Shown here: positions 21,882 through 28,472 of the stretch, one piece after another
Layout: each line of letters begins with the position of its first letter
Numbering within the stretch: the first letter of the stretch is position 1
DNA from: Phycicoccus avicenniae
Lineage (GTDB): Bacteria; Actinomycetota; Actinomycetes; Actinomycetales; Dermatophilaceae
Assembly (NCBI RefSeq): GCF_018139485.1
Contig: NZ_JAGSNF010000018.1
Span: forward strand, 1-47,255
Direction of reading: 5' to 3'
DNA length: 47,255 nucleotides
The notes under the pieces: model-generated
Told to the model about the DNA's origin: nothing
Seen by the model: only the letters and a program-made list of their open reading frames with translations
Databases searched by the model: none
Position numbers and translations under genes: made by a program

Positions 21882-22493
21882 ATGAGCGAGCACGAGCACT
21901 ACTTCACCGCGGAGCCGGCGAGCGCGGCCGACCGGCGTCCACTGCGGGTCCGCCTCGCCGGTCGCGACGTCGAGGTCGAGGTCGCTGGGGGGGTGTTCTC
22001 GCCCGGCGGCCTCGACAAGGGGACCGCGGTCCTCCTCGACGCGGTACCCGATCCCCCGGCGTCCGGGACGTTCCTCGACCTCGGCTGCGGCTGGGGTCCG
22101 GTCGCGCTCACCCTCGGCCTGCTCGCGCCGGAGGCGACGGTGTACGCGCTCGACGTCAACGAGCGCGCCCTCGACCTGTGCCGCCGGAACGCCGCTGCCC
22201 TCGGGCTGGGCGGGGTGGTCGCCACGACCGCGGCCGGCATCCCCGAGGGCGTCCGGTTCGACCGCATCTGGTCCAACCCACCGATCCGGGTCGGCAAGGC
22301 GGTCCTCCACGACCTGCTGCGGACGTGGCTGCCCCGGCTGGCGCCGGACGGGGTCGCCTCGCTCGTCGTCCAGAAGAACCTGGGCTCGGACTCCCTGCAG
22401 CGGTGGGTCGAGGCGGAGGTCGGGATGCGGTGCGAGCGGGTCACCTCGAGCAAGGGCTTCCGGGTGCTCGAGGTGACCCGACCGGTCAGTTGA
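21882..22493 (+). CDS. Class I SAM-dependent methyltransferase, RsmC-like
   Basis: This 203-residue protein matches the C-terminal catalytic half of RsmC/RlmG enzymes, which methylate guanine N2 in rRNA. GGVFSPGGLDKGTAVLL is the family entry motif, DLGCGWGP is SAM motif I, ALDVNERAL is motif II and SNPPIRVGK is the NPP[Y/F]-type motif IV. It lacks the N-terminal half of Escherichia coli RsmC, as is usual for short actinobacterial homologues, so the rRNA position is uncertain. A TAGCCT hexamer lies 9 nt upstream of the ATG. The 3' end overlaps the convergent gene at 22486 by 8 bp. Confidence 0.87.
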   Translation: MSEHEHYFTAEPASAADRRPLRVRLAGRDVEVEVAGGVFSPGGLDKGTAVLLDAVPDPPASGTFLDLGCGWGPVALTLGLLAPEATVYALDVNERALDLCRRNAAALGLGGVVATTAAGIPEGVRFDRIWSNPPIRVGKAVLHDLLRTWLPRLAPDGVASLVVQKNLGSDSLQRWVEAEVGMRCERVTSSKGFRVLEVTRPVS

Positions 22494-24126
22494 ACGTCAT
22501 CGAGAGTGTGGCCGACGCGACGGGATCGCCCGATGTGGAGCCGGACGCGGTGACGGTCCGTGTCTGCGGGGAGTTGCCCGGCGGCGAGTAGGTCACGGTC
22601 CCGGACTGGGCCACGCCGACCCCCAGCGTGATGCTCGACGTGGACACGCTGCCCGACGAGGTCGTGAACGTCACGGTGACCGAGCTCCCGAGGAGCGAGT
22701 TGCCGAGGTCGTCCACGGACCGTCGGGCGATCGCGAAGGAGACGGTTCCGCCACGAGGGGCGGACGTCGATGCCGTCGCCGAGTTCGGGGTGCACGTCGC
22801 AGTGCCGGAGCAGGCGGTGAAGGACAGCTGGCCCTGGGCCTTCGGGGCGACCGTCACGTTCGTGCTCCCGGACCGACCGTCGGCGGTCAGGCTGACCGAG
22901 ACCGTCTGCGCCCCGGCGCGGACCGCGGTCACCTGGATCGTCGCGACGCCGTCGGTGAACGTCGCCGTCCCGGGTGCGCTCGGCGCGGAGCCGTTGGGCG
23001 ACGTCGCGAGCCCGGTGACGGAGATCGCGCGGCTCCCGGTCACGTCGGCGCCCGTCGTGAGGGTGAGTGTGAACGGGGTGCCGGCCGTGGGGGTCGTCGT
23101 CGAGGGCGTGACGACCAGCGAGGCGTTGCGCACCGAGACGGGGACGGCTGCGGTCGTCGTCGAGTTGCCGGCGACGTCGGTGACGACGGCACGCAGGGAC
23201 CAGTCGCCGTCGGCGAGTCCGGCGGTGGCCCAGGTGGTCGACCACGTCCCGCCCGGGGCGGCGACCGGCCCACCGAGCGGCACGAACGACCCCGCGCCCT
23301 GACGCACCTGGACCTGCACGCCCGCCACCCCGGAGCCGCCGGCGTCCGCCGCGGTCCCCGAGACGGTGACCGTCCCACCGACGACCGCACCGGCGGCCGG
23401 GCCGGTGAGGGCACCGGTGGGGCTCGTGCCGTCGATCCGGACCTCGAGGGTCCGCGGGACCTCGAGGTTGCCGGCGGTGTCGACCGAGAGGTAGCGCACC
23501 GTCGTCGACGTGGACACGGCGAACGGGCCGGTGTAGGCGGTCGAGGCCGTCGTCGGGGCGCTCCCGTCCGTCGTGTAGTGGGTGCTCGCGACCCCCGAGG
23601 CGTCGGACGCGGAGAGGGTGACCGTCACGGGGGTCCGGTGCCAGCCGGCGGCGTTCGGGGTGGGCGAGGTCGTCGCGGTCGTCACCGGGGGCGTCGTGTC
23701 ACCGTTCGCGACGACGGCGGTGACGGTGCGGGGCGTCGGCGACTCCCACGCCGTCCCGGCCAGCTGCGCGTGGACGGTGTAGGTGTTCGTCGTGCCGGCG
23801 ACGGGTGCGGGGTCGGTGCACGTGGCGCCCGTCCCGCTCGGGGCGCAGACGAGCGTCGCCGCCTGCGGCGCGGTCCGGACGGCGCGGTACGCCGTCGGGG
23901 TGGGCCCGGTCGCGGGCGGGGTCACCTCGACGACGACCGCCGACGGGCTCGACGACGCCACGGTGGCGCCGGGGGTGCCGAGGGTGGCGACGACGGCGGC
24001 GCCGGTCGCCCCGTCGGAGAGCACCGAGAAGAAGGCCCAGGCCGGGGCGGCGAGGGCGAGCACCGTCGCCGCGGCGGCGAGGAGACCACCGAGCAGACGA
24101 GCGAGCGGGCGCTGGGATGTGGTCAC
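22486..24126 (-). CDS. Exported multi-domain Ig-like repeat protein (last gene of TasA-like operon)
   Basis: This 546-residue Thr/Ser/Gly/Ala-rich exported protein has no known function. A signal helix (LLGGLLAAAATVLALAAPAWA) is followed by an aromatic FFS motif, as in the other cluster members. Then come about five beta-sandwich units: a fibronectin-III-like unit (residues 65-140), a chitobiase-C-like unit with HYTTDGSAPTTAS (150-240), an Ig-like unit ending VVTDVAGNST and two bacterial Ig-like units to the end. The final part has one CSGTATC pair. There is no LPXTG or membrane anchor, so it is secreted or held by partners. The GTG at 24126 overlaps the preceding stop as GTGA, implying coupled translation. 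A fibre, adhesin or wall-associated scaffold is an inference. Confidence 0.75.
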   Translation of the reverse strand: MTTSQRPLARLLGGLLAAAATVLALAAPAWAFFSVLSDGATGAAVVATLGTPGATVASSSPSAVVVEVTPPATGPTPTAYRAVRTAPQAATLVCAPSGTGATCTDPAPVAGTTNTYTVHAQLAGTAWESPTPRTVTAVVANGDTTPPVTTATTSPTPNAAGWHRTPVTVTLSASDASGVASTHYTTDGSAPTTASTAYTGPFAVSTSTTVRYLSVDTAGNLEVPRTLEVRIDGTSPTGALTGPAAGAVVGGTVTVSGTAADAGGSGVAGVQVQVRQGAGSFVPLGGPVAAPGGTWSTTWATAGLADGDWSLRAVVTDVAGNSTTTAAVPVSVRNASLVVTPSTTTPTAGTPFTLTLTTGADVTGSRAISVTGLATSPNGSAPSAPGTATFTDGVATIQVTAVRAGAQTVSVSLTADGRSGSTNVTVAPKAQGQLSFTACSGTATCTPNSATASTSAPRGGTVSFAIARRSVDDLGNSLLGSSVTVTFTTSSGSVSTSSITLGVGVAQSGTVTYSPPGNSPQTRTVTASGSTSGDPVASATLSMTFN

Positions 24127-24650
24127 GAGGTCCTCCCGTCGAGCACCACGGGGACGGTGAGCGAAGCCCCCTGGCACCCGGACGGCGCACCTGCCCCGAG
24201 GGCCACGGCGTCCGGGAGCGTCAGCGTGACGGTGCCTCCGGCCGGGACGGACGAAGAGGTCGCGGCGTCCACCGTCACCGGGGGTGCCGTGCACGCCCCG
24301 ACGGCACCGGAGACCGCCACCGGGCGCGAGCCGTCGAGGCGCACGGCGGTGACGAGCACCGACGTCGGGTTCGGGTTGGTCACCGTGAGGACGAGAGGGG
24401 CCGAACCTCCGGGCACCAGCGCCGCGCCGGACGCGACGGAGGCGGTCGTCGTGAGGGCGACGGGGGCGCCGACCGTGCCGTCGCCGCTCCCGGCGCCGGT
24501 CGTCGACCACCAGGCGAAGGCGGAGCCCCCGGCGAGGACGGAGCCGACGGTGACGACGGCAGCGACGACGAGGCCGCGCGAGCCGCACCGGGAGGGTCGC
24601 CCGTCCTTCCGCGGGCGCGGCGCGCGACGGGGGGAGGCGATGAGGGTCAC
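24123..24650 (-). CDS. Exported protein with TasA-like N-terminus and two-Cys C-terminal module
   Basis: This is a 175-residue protein. A basic N-terminus (RRAPRPRKDGRPSR) precedes a hydrophobic helix ending GGSAFAWWSTTGAGSG. The AWWST pattern resembles SipW-dependent signal peptides (TasA/camelysin type). The mature part contains PLVLTVTNPNPTSVLVTAV, then GACTAPPVTV, then PSGCQGASLTVPV. This module also occurs in the first and second genes of the operon, with two conserved cysteines that could pair. The GTG at 24650 overlaps the preceding stop by 4 nt (GTGA), and its own stop overlaps the next start the same way. The role is unknown; an extracellular fibre subunit or accessory is plausible. 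Confidence 0.72.
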   Translation of the reverse strand: MTLIASPRRAPRPRKDGRPSRCGSRGLVVAAVVTVGSVLAGGSAFAWWSTTGAGSGDGTVGAPVALTTTASVASGAALVPGGSAPLVLTVTNPNPTSVLVTAVRLDGSRPVAVSGAVGACTAPPVTVDAATSSSVPAGGTVTLTLPDAVALGAGAPSGCQGASLTVPVVLDGRTS

Positions 24651-25780
24651 TGGTTCGTCGCCGATCCCGTGAGGGCCAGGGAGACCGTCACGCCCTTGCA
24701 GGCGTCCTGGTTCCCCGCGCGGTTGAGCATGGCGACCGTGGGCAGGGCCGACGGGGGGACGCCGAGCGTCGTGAGGCGCGTCCCCTCGGTCCGGGCGGGC
24801 ACCGTCACCGGGTAGGAGCCGGCGTACTGGCGCACGGTGAACTCCGAGGCGCCGCACCGCGGGTCGGAGGTACCGGTCACGGTGACCCCGAGGTTCGTGA
24901 CCGGGAGCGGCTGGTTGTTCGGGTTGGTCACGGCGAGCTCGACCGGACGGGGCGCGATGCCCGGCCCGAGGGCACCGCTCACCGTCGCCGCGAGGGAGAA
25001 CGCCTTCGCGCTCTGGTTCGTGTCGACGACGAGCTCCGGGGCCACCTGCGAGCGGATCACCGGACTCGCGGCGGTCCCGGTGGCCGTCACGGTGACCGGG
25101 GTCGTGGACCCGGGCGTGGCCGCGGAGGTCCGGACAGTGAGCGTCACCGCGACGGGCGAGGTCGTGCCCGCCGGGATGCTCGCGGGGCTCACCGTCGCGC
25201 TGACGCCGGCCGGGAGGGGGCCGCTCGTCGCGAGCGACACCGGTCCCGTGTACCCGCCGAGCCGGGAGACCGACAGCGCGTACGTGGCGGTCGATCCGGG
25301 GGCGACAGTGACGGTGCCCGGGGTGGCGCCGACGGTGAGGGACGGCGACGCCGGCGCGGAGACGACGACCGTGAGGTCGAGCGTGCGCTTCGTCGGGCCG
25401 CTCGCGGCGGTGAGGGTGAACGTCTGCGTCCCGACGGCGGCCGCGGCCGTCGTCGAGAGGGTGAGGGTGCTCGTCCCCGTGCTGGGTCCCACCGCCACCC
25501 TCGCGGGGCTGAGCGAGAGCGTCGTCCCCGAGGGGGCCTTGCCCGTCGAGAGCGACACCTGGCCGGTGAACCCCGACACCGGGGCGAGCGAGATGCGGTA
25601 CGTGACGCTCTGCCCGCGCTGGACGGTCTGGCTCGCGGGTTGCGACGTCACCGTGAAGTCACGGGCGGGCGCGGCCGCCAGGGCGCCGTCGACGCCCGGG
25701 AGCCGGCCGACGAGGGCGACCACGACGAGGGCAGCGAGCATCACCAGGGCGGCTGCCCGGGTCATGACGAGTGCCTTCAT
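24647..25780 (-). CDS. Exported protein: two Ig-like repeats plus two-Cys C-terminal module
   Basis: This 377-residue exported protein has a conventional Sec signal ending DGALAAAPA. Two tandem beta-sandwich repeats follow: FTVTSQPASQTVQRGQSVTY (about 40-140) and LTVGATPGTVTVAPGSTATY (about 150-250). Both belong to the V-x-x-G-x-[ST]-x-x-Y class common in surface proteins. The last 120 residues (PVELAVTNPNNQPLPVTNL, RCGASEFTV, AGNQDACKGVTVSL) are homologous to the modules of the flanking small genes. No wall-sorting signal is present. The ATG at 25780 is preferred, though the ATG five codons later is possible. The stop overlaps the next gene (GTGA). Function unknown. Confidence 0.74.
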   Translation of the reverse strand: MKALVMTRAAALVMLAALVVVALVGRLPGVDGALAAAPARDFTVTSQPASQTVQRGQSVTYRISLAPVSGFTGQVSLSTGKAPSGTTLSLSPARVAVGPSTGTSTLTLSTTAAAAVGTQTFTLTAASGPTKRTLDLTVVVSAPASPSLTVGATPGTVTVAPGSTATYALSVSRLGGYTGPVSLATSGPLPAGVSATVSPASIPAGTTSPVAVTLTVRTSAATPGSTTPVTVTATGTAASPVIRSQVAPELVVDTNQSAKAFSLAATVSGALGPGIAPRPVELAVTNPNNQPLPVTNLGVTVTGTSDPRCGASEFTVRQYAGSYPVTVPARTEGTRLTTLGVPPSALPTVAMLNRAGNQDACKGVTVSLALTGSATNQ

Positions 25781-25874
25781 CGGTGGTCCCCTGCGGTCGG
25801 CCGGCTTCCCGGCGCGTGGACGGTGGTGCCGGACGGGTCCGGCGAGGACGCCGGGCGCGGGGCCCGGCGCCGGG

Positions 25875-26375
25875 TCACTGCGCGCTGTAGGCGAAGTCGA
25901 CCGTCGCGCCCTTGCAGCCGTCCTGGTTCGTCGTCTTGTTGTTGAACTTGATCGAGTCGCCGGCGGTGGACTGCGACCCGCCGCTCGCGAGGTCGACCGG
26001 GGCCCAGGTCATCGTGAAGGCACCGTTCGCCGGGAGCGGGCTGCCGTTGTACGTGTAGTCGGTCGGGTCGCAGGCACCGACGGCACCGGGGGCCTGGGTG
26101 ACGCTGGCGACACCGGTGACCGACGTGACGTAGGCGGCGTTCTCGGCGTTGTTCGTGACCTTCACGACGAGCGACTGCGCCGCGTCGCCCGGGTACATGT
26201 TGATGACCGAGCTCGTCTGCTCGAGCGTGAGGTTGGCGGCGCCGGCCGAGGTGGTGGCGGACCCGGTCCCGGACCCGGTGCTGGTCCAGTAGGCGTACGC
26301 GGCGGTGCCGGTACCGAGGACGACGACGGCGGCGACGCCGGTGACGGCGACCTGCTTCTTGGTGAACGTGCGCAT
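25875..26375 (-). CDS. TasA/camelysin-like exported protein (first gene of operon)
   Basis: This is a 166-residue protein. MRTFTKKQVAVTGVAAVVVLG leads into GTAAYAYWTSTGSGTGSATT, an N-terminus like SipW-processed exported proteins. SAGAANLTLEQ then sits where TasA and camelysin have AAGTLDL. The mature domain has LVVKVTNNAENAAYVTSV, GACDPTDYTY and NQDGCKGATVDF, the two-Cys module shared with the next two genes. Amyloid-fibre subunits of Bacillus biofilms belong to the broad group, but fibre formation here is inference. The ATG at 26375 is chosen over an upstream in-frame start because it opens directly on the signal helix; GGGGAAAGGG lies about 10 nt before it. The next gene starts 94 bp downstream. 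No signal peptidase gene lies nearby. Confidence 0.78.
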   Translation of the reverse strand: MRTFTKKQVAVTGVAAVVVLGTGTAAYAYWTSTGSGTGSATTSAGAANLTLEQTSSVINMYPGDAAQSLVVKVTNNAENAAYVTSVTGVASVTQAPGAVGACDPTDYTYNGSPLPANGAFTMTWAPVDLASGGSQSTAGDSIKFNNKTTNQDGCKGATVDFAYSAQ

Positions 26376-26591: not shown

Positions 26592-28472
26592 TCACTCGGG
26601 GCGGACGACCATCGCCGAGCCGCCGCCGCGCCGGGTCGGTTCTGCCGCAGCCGAGTACCGGTCGGGCCCGAGGACGGCGATGCCGGTCGCCGCTCCGATC
26701 TCGTCGGTGCTCGACAGCCGATGGCCGAGCGCGGTGAGACCGGCGCCCAAGGGACCGCCGGCGACGGCCGGCTCGGCCGACTCGCTCGAGCCGTTGCGGC
26801 TGGAGAGCCGGGGCGCGGCGATCGCGTCCCCGACGTCGAGGCCGCGGTCGTAGTGGCCGAGGAGGACCTGGGCCACCGTCGTGATGATCGTCGAGCCACC
26901 GGGGCTGCCGGCCACGAGCTCGAGGCCGCCGTCGCCGACGACGACGGTCGGGGCCATCGACGAGCGGGGTCGCTTGCCCGGACCGGGCAGGTTCGGGTGC
27001 GGGACGCCCTCGGTGATCGGCTCGAACTCGAAGTCGGTGAGCTCGTTGTTGAGCAGGAACCCCCACCCGGGGACGGTGATGCCCGAGCCGCCCGTCTGCT
27101 CGATCGTCGAGGTGTACGACACCGCGTTGCCCCACCGGTCGACGACCGACAGGTGGGTGGTCGACATCCCCTCGTGCGGCAGCACCCCGGCGGGGCTCCC
27201 GCCGTCGCAGTCCGCGTAGTCGCCGTCGGGGCTGCCGAACGGGACGGGGCGCGGGAGGGTCGAGCGGGCGTCGAAGAGGCAGCTGCGCTCGTCGGCGAAG
27301 CCCTGGGAGACGAGCTCCTCGGCCGGGACGCCGGGCACGTCGCCGATGTACCGGTTGCGGTCGGCGAAGGCCGTCGCGGACGCCTCGGAGAAGCGGTGGA
27401 GGTACTGGACGTCGTCGACGTCGGACATCGGCTCGCCGGTCCGCTCGTCGTACGCCTCGACGAGGTTGAGGATCTCGGCGACGGTGATGCCGCCGCTGCT
27501 CGGCACCGGCATCCCGTAGACGTCACGGCCTCGGAACCGCGAGTGGACGGGCTCCTTGTCGAGCGCCTCGTAGGTCGCGAGGTCGGCGCGCGTCATCCGC
27601 CCGTGGAACACCTCCGCCCCGGCCACGGTCGTCGGGTCCTGCACCTCGGCGACGACGGCACGCCCCAGGCGGCCCTCGTACAGCGACTCGACGCCGCGGG
27701 TGCGCAGCTCGCGGTAGGCGCGGGCGAGGTCGGGGTTGCGGAACACGGTGCCGACCTCGGGCGGGGCACCGCCGGGGAGGAAGACGTCCGCGGTCTCGGG
27801 GAAGAGCGAGAACCGCTCGGCGTTCGCGGCGGTCTGGTCGTGGAAGGTCGCGTCGACGACGAAGCCGCGCCGGGCCAGCCGTTCGGCCGGCTTGAGGAGC
27901 GTCGACAGGCGCTGGGTCCCCCAGCGCTCCGCCGCCCGCTCCCAGGTGGCGGGCGTGCCGGGCACCCCCACGGACAGCCCGGAGCCGACGACGTCGCGGA
28001 AGGGCAGCGGCTCCCCGTCCGCGTCGAGGAAGACGTCCTCGCCGTAGCTCATCGGCGCCGTCTCGCGGCCGTCGATCGTCTCGACGGTGCCGCTCGCCGC
28101 GTCGTAGTGCACGAAGAACCCGCCGCCGCCGATGCCCGTCGAGTACGGCTCGGTGACCCCGAGGGCGGCGGTCGTCGCGATCGCCGCGTCGGTCGCGTTG
28201 CCCCCGGCGGCGAGGACGTCGATGCCGACCTGGCTCGCGACGGCGTCGACGCTCGAGACGGCACCGCCGGACCCGGTCATCACCGCCACCTTCGGCAGGT
28301 CGTGCCCGACGGGGGGCGGTCCTCCCCGCCCCGCCGGGGGCCCGCCCCGGCCGTCCGGCGGCCCCGCGACGGCGGGCGTGCCGAGGGCCAGGCCGCCGGC
28401 GACGGCGCTCGCGAGTGCGACGACGAGCACCCGGCCTCGGCGGGACGGACGGGGGGCGGGACGGGTCTCCAT
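26592..28472 (-). CDS. ggt: Gamma-glutamyltransferase (glutathione hydrolase), exported
   Basis: This 626-residue precursor cleaves gamma-glutamyl bonds of glutathione and related peptides outside the membrane. The signal peptide (RRGRVLVVALASAVAGGLALG) is followed by a Gly/Pro/Arg-rich linker (PPDGRGGPPAGRGGPP). The large-subunit part has VLAAGGNATDAAIA and EPYSTGIGGGGFFVHYD. Autocleavage should occur before Thr438 in MSTTHLSVVD, the family nucleophile. The small subunit contains GSGITVPGWGFLLNNELTDF and GSPGGSTIIT, the oxyanion GG motif. The ATG at 28472 lies 6 nt after TAGTTT. The gene is divergent from the oxidoreductase at 28552. The symbol follows homology only. Confidence 0.93.
   Translation of the reverse strand: METRPAPRPSRRGRVLVVALASAVAGGLALGTPAVAGPPDGRGGPPAGRGGPPPVGHDLPKVAVMTGSGGAVSSVDAVASQVGIDVLAAGGNATDAAIATTAALGVTEPYSTGIGGGGFFVHYDAASGTVETIDGRETAPMSYGEDVFLDADGEPLPFRDVVGSGLSVGVPGTPATWERAAERWGTQRLSTLLKPAERLARRGFVVDATFHDQTAANAERFSLFPETADVFLPGGAPPEVGTVFRNPDLARAYRELRTRGVESLYEGRLGRAVVAEVQDPTTVAGAEVFHGRMTRADLATYEALDKEPVHSRFRGRDVYGMPVPSSGGITVAEILNLVEAYDERTGEPMSDVDDVQYLHRFSEASATAFADRNRYIGDVPGVPAEELVSQGFADERSCLFDARSTLPRPVPFGSPDGDYADCDGGSPAGVLPHEGMSTTHLSVVDRWGNAVSYTSTIEQTGGSGITVPGWGFLLNNELTDFEFEPITEGVPHPNLPGPGKRPRSSMAPTVVVGDGGLELVAGSPGGSTIITTVAQVLLGHYDRGLDVGDAIAAPRLSSRNGSSESAEPAVAGGPLGAGLTALGHRLSSTDEIGAATGIAVLGPDRYSAAAEPTRRGGGSAMVVRPE

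Follow-up and report, generated by a model that had tools for sequence, protein, structure and literature searches.

A four-gene operon in a 47,255-nucleotide stretch of Phycicoccus avicenniae DNA (contig NZ_JAGSNF010000018.1; the whole stretch is referred to here as the window) probably encodes an extracellular fibre of the TasA type, held together by donor strands, in which gene 2 would form the base, gene 1 the shaft, gene 3 the adapter and gene 4 the tip or initiator. Gene 1 (25875-26375) encodes a signal peptide, an N-terminal Tyr-Trp (YW) strand and a two-cysteine module, and is the proposed shaft subunit. Gene 2 (24647-25780), the proposed acceptor-only base, has an N-terminal hydrophobic stretch, two immunoglobulin (Ig)-like domains and a C-terminal two-cysteine module, and no YW strand. 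Gene 3 (24123-24650), the proposed adapter, has a signal peptide, a WW strand and the module. Gene 4 (22486-24126), the proposed donor-only tip or initiator, has a signal peptide, an FF strand and Ig/fibronectin type III (Fn3)-like repeats, and no module. All four genes lie on the minus strand, with coordinates as given in a preliminary description of the window. That description also tied the genes together by three GTGA-type overlaps or short gaps; there are two 4-nt GTGA overlaps, at genes 2/3 and 3/4, and one gap of 94 nt between genes 1 and 2. Direct computation underlies the module common to genes 1-3, the resemblance in fold seen with the gene 1 model, the distribution of the parts by protein class and the conservation of the gene set.

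The module was searched for with a profile of 13 gene 1 sequences (A1). Against the organism's own genome (3.54 Mb) at an expectation value (E) ≤0.001, this profile matches gene 1 (1.0e-50), the C-terminus of gene 2 (24668-25018, minus strand, 5.5e-16) and gene 3 (7.0e-13), with no other match. The resemblance among genes 1-3 is thus beyond chance, a profile made from gene 1 only finding just the other two besides gene 1. The profile search proposed in the preliminary description therefore came out in favour of a common module, with genes 1-3 as its only matches in the genome. The C-terminal pattern given there for the three proteins needs a small correction, gene 1 having V-T-N-N-A instead of V-T-N-[PN]-N. 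No Pfam or NCBIfam family reaches its cut-off in genes 1-3. In a family scan of 75 gene 1 relatives the matches were scattered and weak: each family was matched by at most 7 members, and the lowest E was 0.00036 for Pfam and 0.0015 for NCBIfam. Sequence searches of the PDB gave no lead. It is noted that at one related locus (L053, 6632-7054) the gene 2 module retains just one cysteine.

The scan for relatives of the operon used a pair of peptide patterns, one covering the YW start, the other the second cysteine. The best 80 of 178 relatives were retained, with genes called by a home-made script; these best 80 of 178 include members of Kribbella, Amycolatopsis, Arthrobacter, Nocardioides, Terrabacter, Phycicoccus, Microbacteriaceae and Solirubrobacterales, and 6 are metagenome-assembled genomes (MAGs) labelled Chloroflexi. 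The A1 profile matches 23/186 genomes of the family (17/186 with a single gene 1 sequence). A profile of the window and 74 of the 80 loci (A2) matches 12/396 genomes across the phylum at E ≤1e-8; profile A3 was built from gene 2 of the window and of 46/60 relatives. Two modules are present in 35 of the 80 loci, three in 32 and one in 13 (some of the last on short contigs), and each of the 99 extra modules is encoded downstream of gene 1 in the same orientation, at a distance of 499 to 4969 bp. The conserved gene neighbourhood anticipated for the operon is borne out by the 67/80 loci with two or three modules; gene 3 is missing from many clusters. Mature gene 1 proteins (n=80, from 79 loci and the window; L095 was left out, as no start was found) have exactly two cysteines in each, and start with YW in 72, FW in 7 and YF in 1; YW after A-x-A was recorded in window gene 1 and 79/80 loci. 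Residues G6, P34, N47, C74, Q123 and C126 are invariant in the 75-row gene 1 alignment. The conservation of YW and of the cysteines is partly due to selection, because the scan patterns favour YW and the second cysteine.

The putative donor strand is distributed differently from the module. After the signal peptide, gene 1 starts at AYA-YWTSTGSGTG, gene 3 at AFA-WWSTTGAGSG and gene 4 at AWA-FFSVLSDGATG. The proposed strands are YWTSTGSGTGSA in gene 1 (26256-26291, minus strand; the first 12 mature residues after the presumed cleavage), WWSTTGAGSGDG in gene 3 (24477-24512, minus strand; placed where the profile match starts) and FFSVLSDGATGA in gene 4 (23998-24033, minus strand; read from the sequence, its motif class being tested in the long-protein set). 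The A-[YF]-[WF] start at the gene 1 and gene 3 positions is like the TasA donor strand, and the gene 2 position is without it. The preliminary description had given gene 1 no front end, gene 3 a basic one and gene 2 two Ig-like repeats; the last stands, whereas genes 1 and 3 each begin with a signal peptide and then an aromatic strand. In gene 1 the strand-like segment is conserved in sequence and unstructured in the monomer model.

A strand profile built from 79 gene 1 sequences, which fixes the gene 1 count by construction, was applied at E ≤0.01. In hand-made sets it matches 0/60 gene 2 proteins, 29/39 gene 3-type proteins, 12/56 long proteins and 2/407 other genes. A looser motif placed after a hydrophobic stretch is found in 78/80 gene 1, 1/60 gene 2, 26/39 gene 3-type, 43/56 long and 28/407 other proteins. 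The 60 gene 2 proteins were first picked by eye from a list showing the YW flag, so their counts of 0/60 and 1/60 are partly circular, and the test was therefore repeated with labels set by position only. With these labels, the strand profile matches 1/32 first extra modules (gene 2 position), 25/32 second extra modules (gene 3 position) and 3/35 modules at loci with a single extra one. The set of 56 retains off-target neighbours and two diverged gene 2 proteins (L057, L080), and the 407 other genes retain a few true relatives, such as L080_7792 and L087_6852. Most gene 4-type proteins have the strand motif and no module core; where long proteins match the module profile, the match falls mainly in the N-terminal part of the profile, the exceptions being the two diverged gene 2 proteins and two weak longer matches, L044 and L038. 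The multi-Ig nature earlier attributed to gene 4 agrees with its matches to CHB_HEX_C_1 (9.9e-15), Big_7 (1.3e-9) and an OmpL47-type domain (2.1e-14).

The AlphaFold2 model of gene 1 has a mean predicted local distance difference test score (pLDDT) of 92.8 and a predicted template modelling score (pTM) of 0.79. Mature residues 1-20 have no strand assigned and block pLDDT values of 68 and 76, and the other blocks are at ≥95. When this model was compared with the PDB by Foldseek, rank 1 was 8aur_A, the TasA fibre (probability 1.00, TMq 0.59), which points to a TasA-type jelly-roll fold, though at E 0.019. The other 49 listed matches have TMq ≤0.40, and no match at E ≤0.001 is found among the matches listed. 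An hhalign comparison of gene 1 with 22 actinobacterial camelysins (from 22/30 loci) runs collinearly for 129 columns, from the first mature residue to the end, with YW aligned on YF; its score of 23.5 compares with 5.4-12.1 in 20 column shuffles (P 0.0077, HH probability 5%). The gene 2 model (pLDDT 93.6, pTM 0.54) is composed of two Ig-like domains and the module, which has a strand order similar to gene 1 and a short helix before the second cysteine; the 50 Foldseek matches listed for it, with tandem-Ig proteins, gave no lead. Superposable modules had been expected, and the confident gene 1 and gene 2 models agree in listed strand order, the comparison being one of strand lists only. WxL-interacting proteins were also considered and dropped (Foldseek ranks 13, 21 and 32 at E ~0.1; WxLIP_PGBD in 1/75 at 0.0018).

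The same genes might encode no polymer at all, being separate exported surface proteins, for example binding or adhesion proteins, that arose from a duplicated module. The family and PDB sequence searches did give weak matches to binding-type and Ig-like domains, and fibre assembly here is deduced from genes and models. However, separate proteins would leave unexplained the ordered, conserved gene set, the different distribution of strand and module between positions, and the TasA fibre as the top fold match, and we regard this alternative as unlikely. The module, the gene set and the TasA-like predicted fold favour the surface fibre or matrix of small subunits plus scaffold pictured in the preliminary description, in which fibre formation could proceed as follows.

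In the proposed donor-strand fibre, the gene 1 protein would be exported and its signal peptide removed, and its N-terminal Y-W-x-x-x-G-x-G-x-G strand would insert into the groove of a neighbouring gene 1 module to build the shaft, each module being stapled by its two conserved cysteines. Gene 4 may sit at the free end, where it would initiate the fibre, as has been proposed for TapA in the case of TasA, and leave its Ig/Fn3 repeats exposed. Gene 3 would join gene 4 to the gene 1 shaft, and gene 2 would accept the strand of the final gene 1 subunit at the cell surface, giving a chain that begins with gene 2, continues with repeated gene 1 and ends with gene 3 and then gene 4. With a strand and without a module, gene 4 could only donate; with a module and without a strand, gene 2 could only accept. 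If gene 2 is at the cell surface, the donor strands would face the cell, the reverse of the orientation in type 1 and P pili. We infer the disulfide, the polymerization, the roles of genes 2-4 and the polarity from the observations given above.

The N-terminal strand of each TasA subunit is described as completing the sheet of its neighbour, with TapA as the possible source of the first strand (PMC9674648, PMC10151520). TapA, a strand donor, has been regarded as a cell-wall anchor (PMC9674648), which is the reverse of the polarity proposed here, and so a fibre of the same kind with opposite polarity stays a rival. The donor-only gene 4 would then lie at the cell surface, and gene 2 would cap the far end or link elsewhere. 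Besides the surface location considered for TapA, the many gene 2 N-termini that resemble cleavable signal peptides would suit such an arrangement. It is opposed by the LPXTG or membrane-like N-termini found on gene 2 and by the 57-protein gene 4 set, in which there is no LPXTG and only 2 proteins have a hydrophobic C-terminus, both apparently unrelated neighbours (L099_7717, L106_6876). We consider the opposite polarity quite unlikely.

An LPXTG-transmembrane-Arg signal ends 3/60 gene 2 proteins (L050, L064, L066), and 9/60 have an LAxTG-transmembrane-Arg segment at the N-terminus. In the remaining 48/60, the script detected no hydrophobic stretch in 8; of the others, some resemble membrane anchors (L052, L058, L093, L101), and many contain an AxA-like site of the kind seen in cleaved signal peptides (L038, L042, L045). 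The LAxTG variant (L049, L094, L102, L106, L108, L110, L112, L113 and L116, with L114 looking alike) has an N-terminal segment that resembles a sorting signal in the wrong place, and its loci usually carry a long protein between gene 1 and gene 2. C-terminal membrane-like stretches are found in 0/80 gene 1 relatives and 0/39 gene 3-type proteins. The shaft subunit with LPXTG that marks a sortase-assembled pilus is thus missing here, 80/80 gene 1 relatives being without a C-terminal membrane segment.

The operon could also be viewed as an ordinary SipW/TasA operon that relies on a signal peptidase encoded at a different place in the genome. The TasA-like fold of gene 1 is consistent with this, as is the one SipW-type peptidase above cut-off in the organism's own genome (84.4 bits, cut-off 51.85). 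That peptidase (TIGR02228), however, sits in a separate cluster of its own (L150, 6426-8585, minus strand), beside a TIGR04089 alternate-signal protein. Peptidases over the cut-off occur in 5/17 genomes of the family with strong gene 1 matches vs 40/169 others, so co-occurrence of gene 1 with SipW was rejected. The peptidase profile finds a linked gene in just 3/80 loci (L048, L052, L093), and by gene calls no dedicated SipW peptidase is present in the window cluster. Among the window proteins no SipW-family model is over its cut-off, and none matches PF12389 or the SipW-substrate NCBIfam models at E ≤1; in gene 1 relatives PF12389 is found in 1/75 at 0.057 and TIGR04090 in 1/13 at 0.013. The A-x-A junction of gene 1 would suit ordinary signal peptidase I. 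A SipW/TasA operon of the ordinary kind is therefore very improbable. It should be mentioned that the L150 cluster also holds two exported proteins with no family match above cut-off, and that in L048, a Nocardioides MAG, gene 1 is directly preceded (upstream of 4874) by two peptidase-like genes and the gene for an A-F-A-F-W-T-D protein, two fibre-like systems being neighbours there.

Several points weigh against the TasA-type fibre proposed here. Family-model support for the assignment is absent, and both the Foldseek E of 0.019 and the hhalign P of 0.0077, with an HH probability of only 5%, are weak. Polymer formation and the subunit complexes are put forward as a proposal. The cell-wall anchoring attributed to TapA has been described above. 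Single-module loci account for 13/80, and the strict strand profile finds just 12/56 long proteins. Anchoring of gene 2 is uneven (3/60 LPXTG, 9 LAxTG-transmembrane, 48 other), and our confidence is lowered slightly because many gene 2 N-termini resemble cleavable signal peptides.

The operon is flanked by what we take, from sequence features, to be ggt (26592-28472) and a convergent methyltransferase gene (21882-22493), the end of which overlaps the end of gene 4 by 8 nt. In 11 other genomes of the genus there is no gene 1 match at E ≤0.001. The methyltransferase is flanked on one side by hflX in 11/11 of them; on its opposite side, the first window gene to match is ggt in 6/11 and dapF in 5/11. 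The methyltransferase-ggt distance is ~710 bp in L186 and ~110 bp or less in the other five, the empty sites of L185, L188, L189, L190 and L193. With these five empty sites, the operon looks like a clean lineage-specific gain and was most simply gained in this lineage. In L195 (1-1417) hflX matches in three pieces, perhaps through frameshifts or assembly errors. The gap between genes 1 and 2 was examined for a conserved RNA hairpin, which was rejected (z -0.42 in the window; in four other stretches, of which L023 and L046 are from the same organism, +1.27, +1.10, +1.02 and -4.32), and Rfam gave 0 matches at gathering score in the window.

The closest known systems are the TasA fibre of Bacillus subtilis (tapA-sipW-tasA) and the camelysins (PF12389). 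Resemblance in the predicted fold and in the aromatic N-terminal strand after the signal peptide supports the view that the operon may work like the TasA fibre. The PG and N motifs are also aligned in register with gene 1, and a strand-donor partner (TapA there, in our proposal gene 4 here) is common to both. Unlike those proteins, gene 1 has ~138 mature residues and two conserved cysteines, no linked SipW and essentially no PF12389 match, and the window set has several module paralogues, one of them without the strand, plus a long Ig-repeat partner. Since neither the family models nor SipW linkage place it there, the operon is not filed as a TasA family member. The SipW-dependent alternate-signal proteins (TIGR04088, TIGR04089), one of which the genome encodes elsewhere (L150), have a similar A-[YFW]-[WF] start after the signal peptide. 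The difference is that the window proteins give no match to either model at E ≤1 and lack a linked peptidase.

Taken further, the operon could represent a donor-strand pilus so far without a name, widespread in Actinobacteria and, going by MAG labels, also present in Chloroflexi, that needs no chaperone, usher, sortase polymerization or SipW, with a donor-only tip, a donor-plus-acceptor shaft and adapter, and an acceptor-only, surface-held base that fixes a polarity opposite to chaperone-usher pili; we advance this wider view only tentatively. No description of such a system in Actinobacteria was found among the titles and abstracts listed from the open PMC literature, which is weak evidence, as bioRxiv and most subscription journals lie outside that scope. 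Inspection of the window genes by eye showed neither a chaperone nor an usher, with no model search made for either. Chaperone-usher pili (type 1, P) are also donor-strand chains with end subunits lacking one half of the joint, but the polarity predicted here is reversed. As described in the archaeal thread paper, the polarity of type 1 and P pili is opposite to that proposed here (PMC9715654). The archaeal thread (Saci_0406/Saci_0405) and the archaeal bundling pili, the latter as cited by others, are like the fibre proposed here in being a chaperone-usher-free donor-strand chain with a cap-like partner gene (PMC9715654). Few donor-strand fibres are known that do not belong to the chaperone-usher system, and many Actinobacteria would, if our proposal is true, gain a previously unnamed surface fibre. 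Because strand and groove are here divided among different genes, deletion of single genes, together with labelling, offers a test of initiation, termination and polarity. The proposal, if true, would settle for this class the polarity that is stated as unknown for the archaeal thread (PMC9715654).

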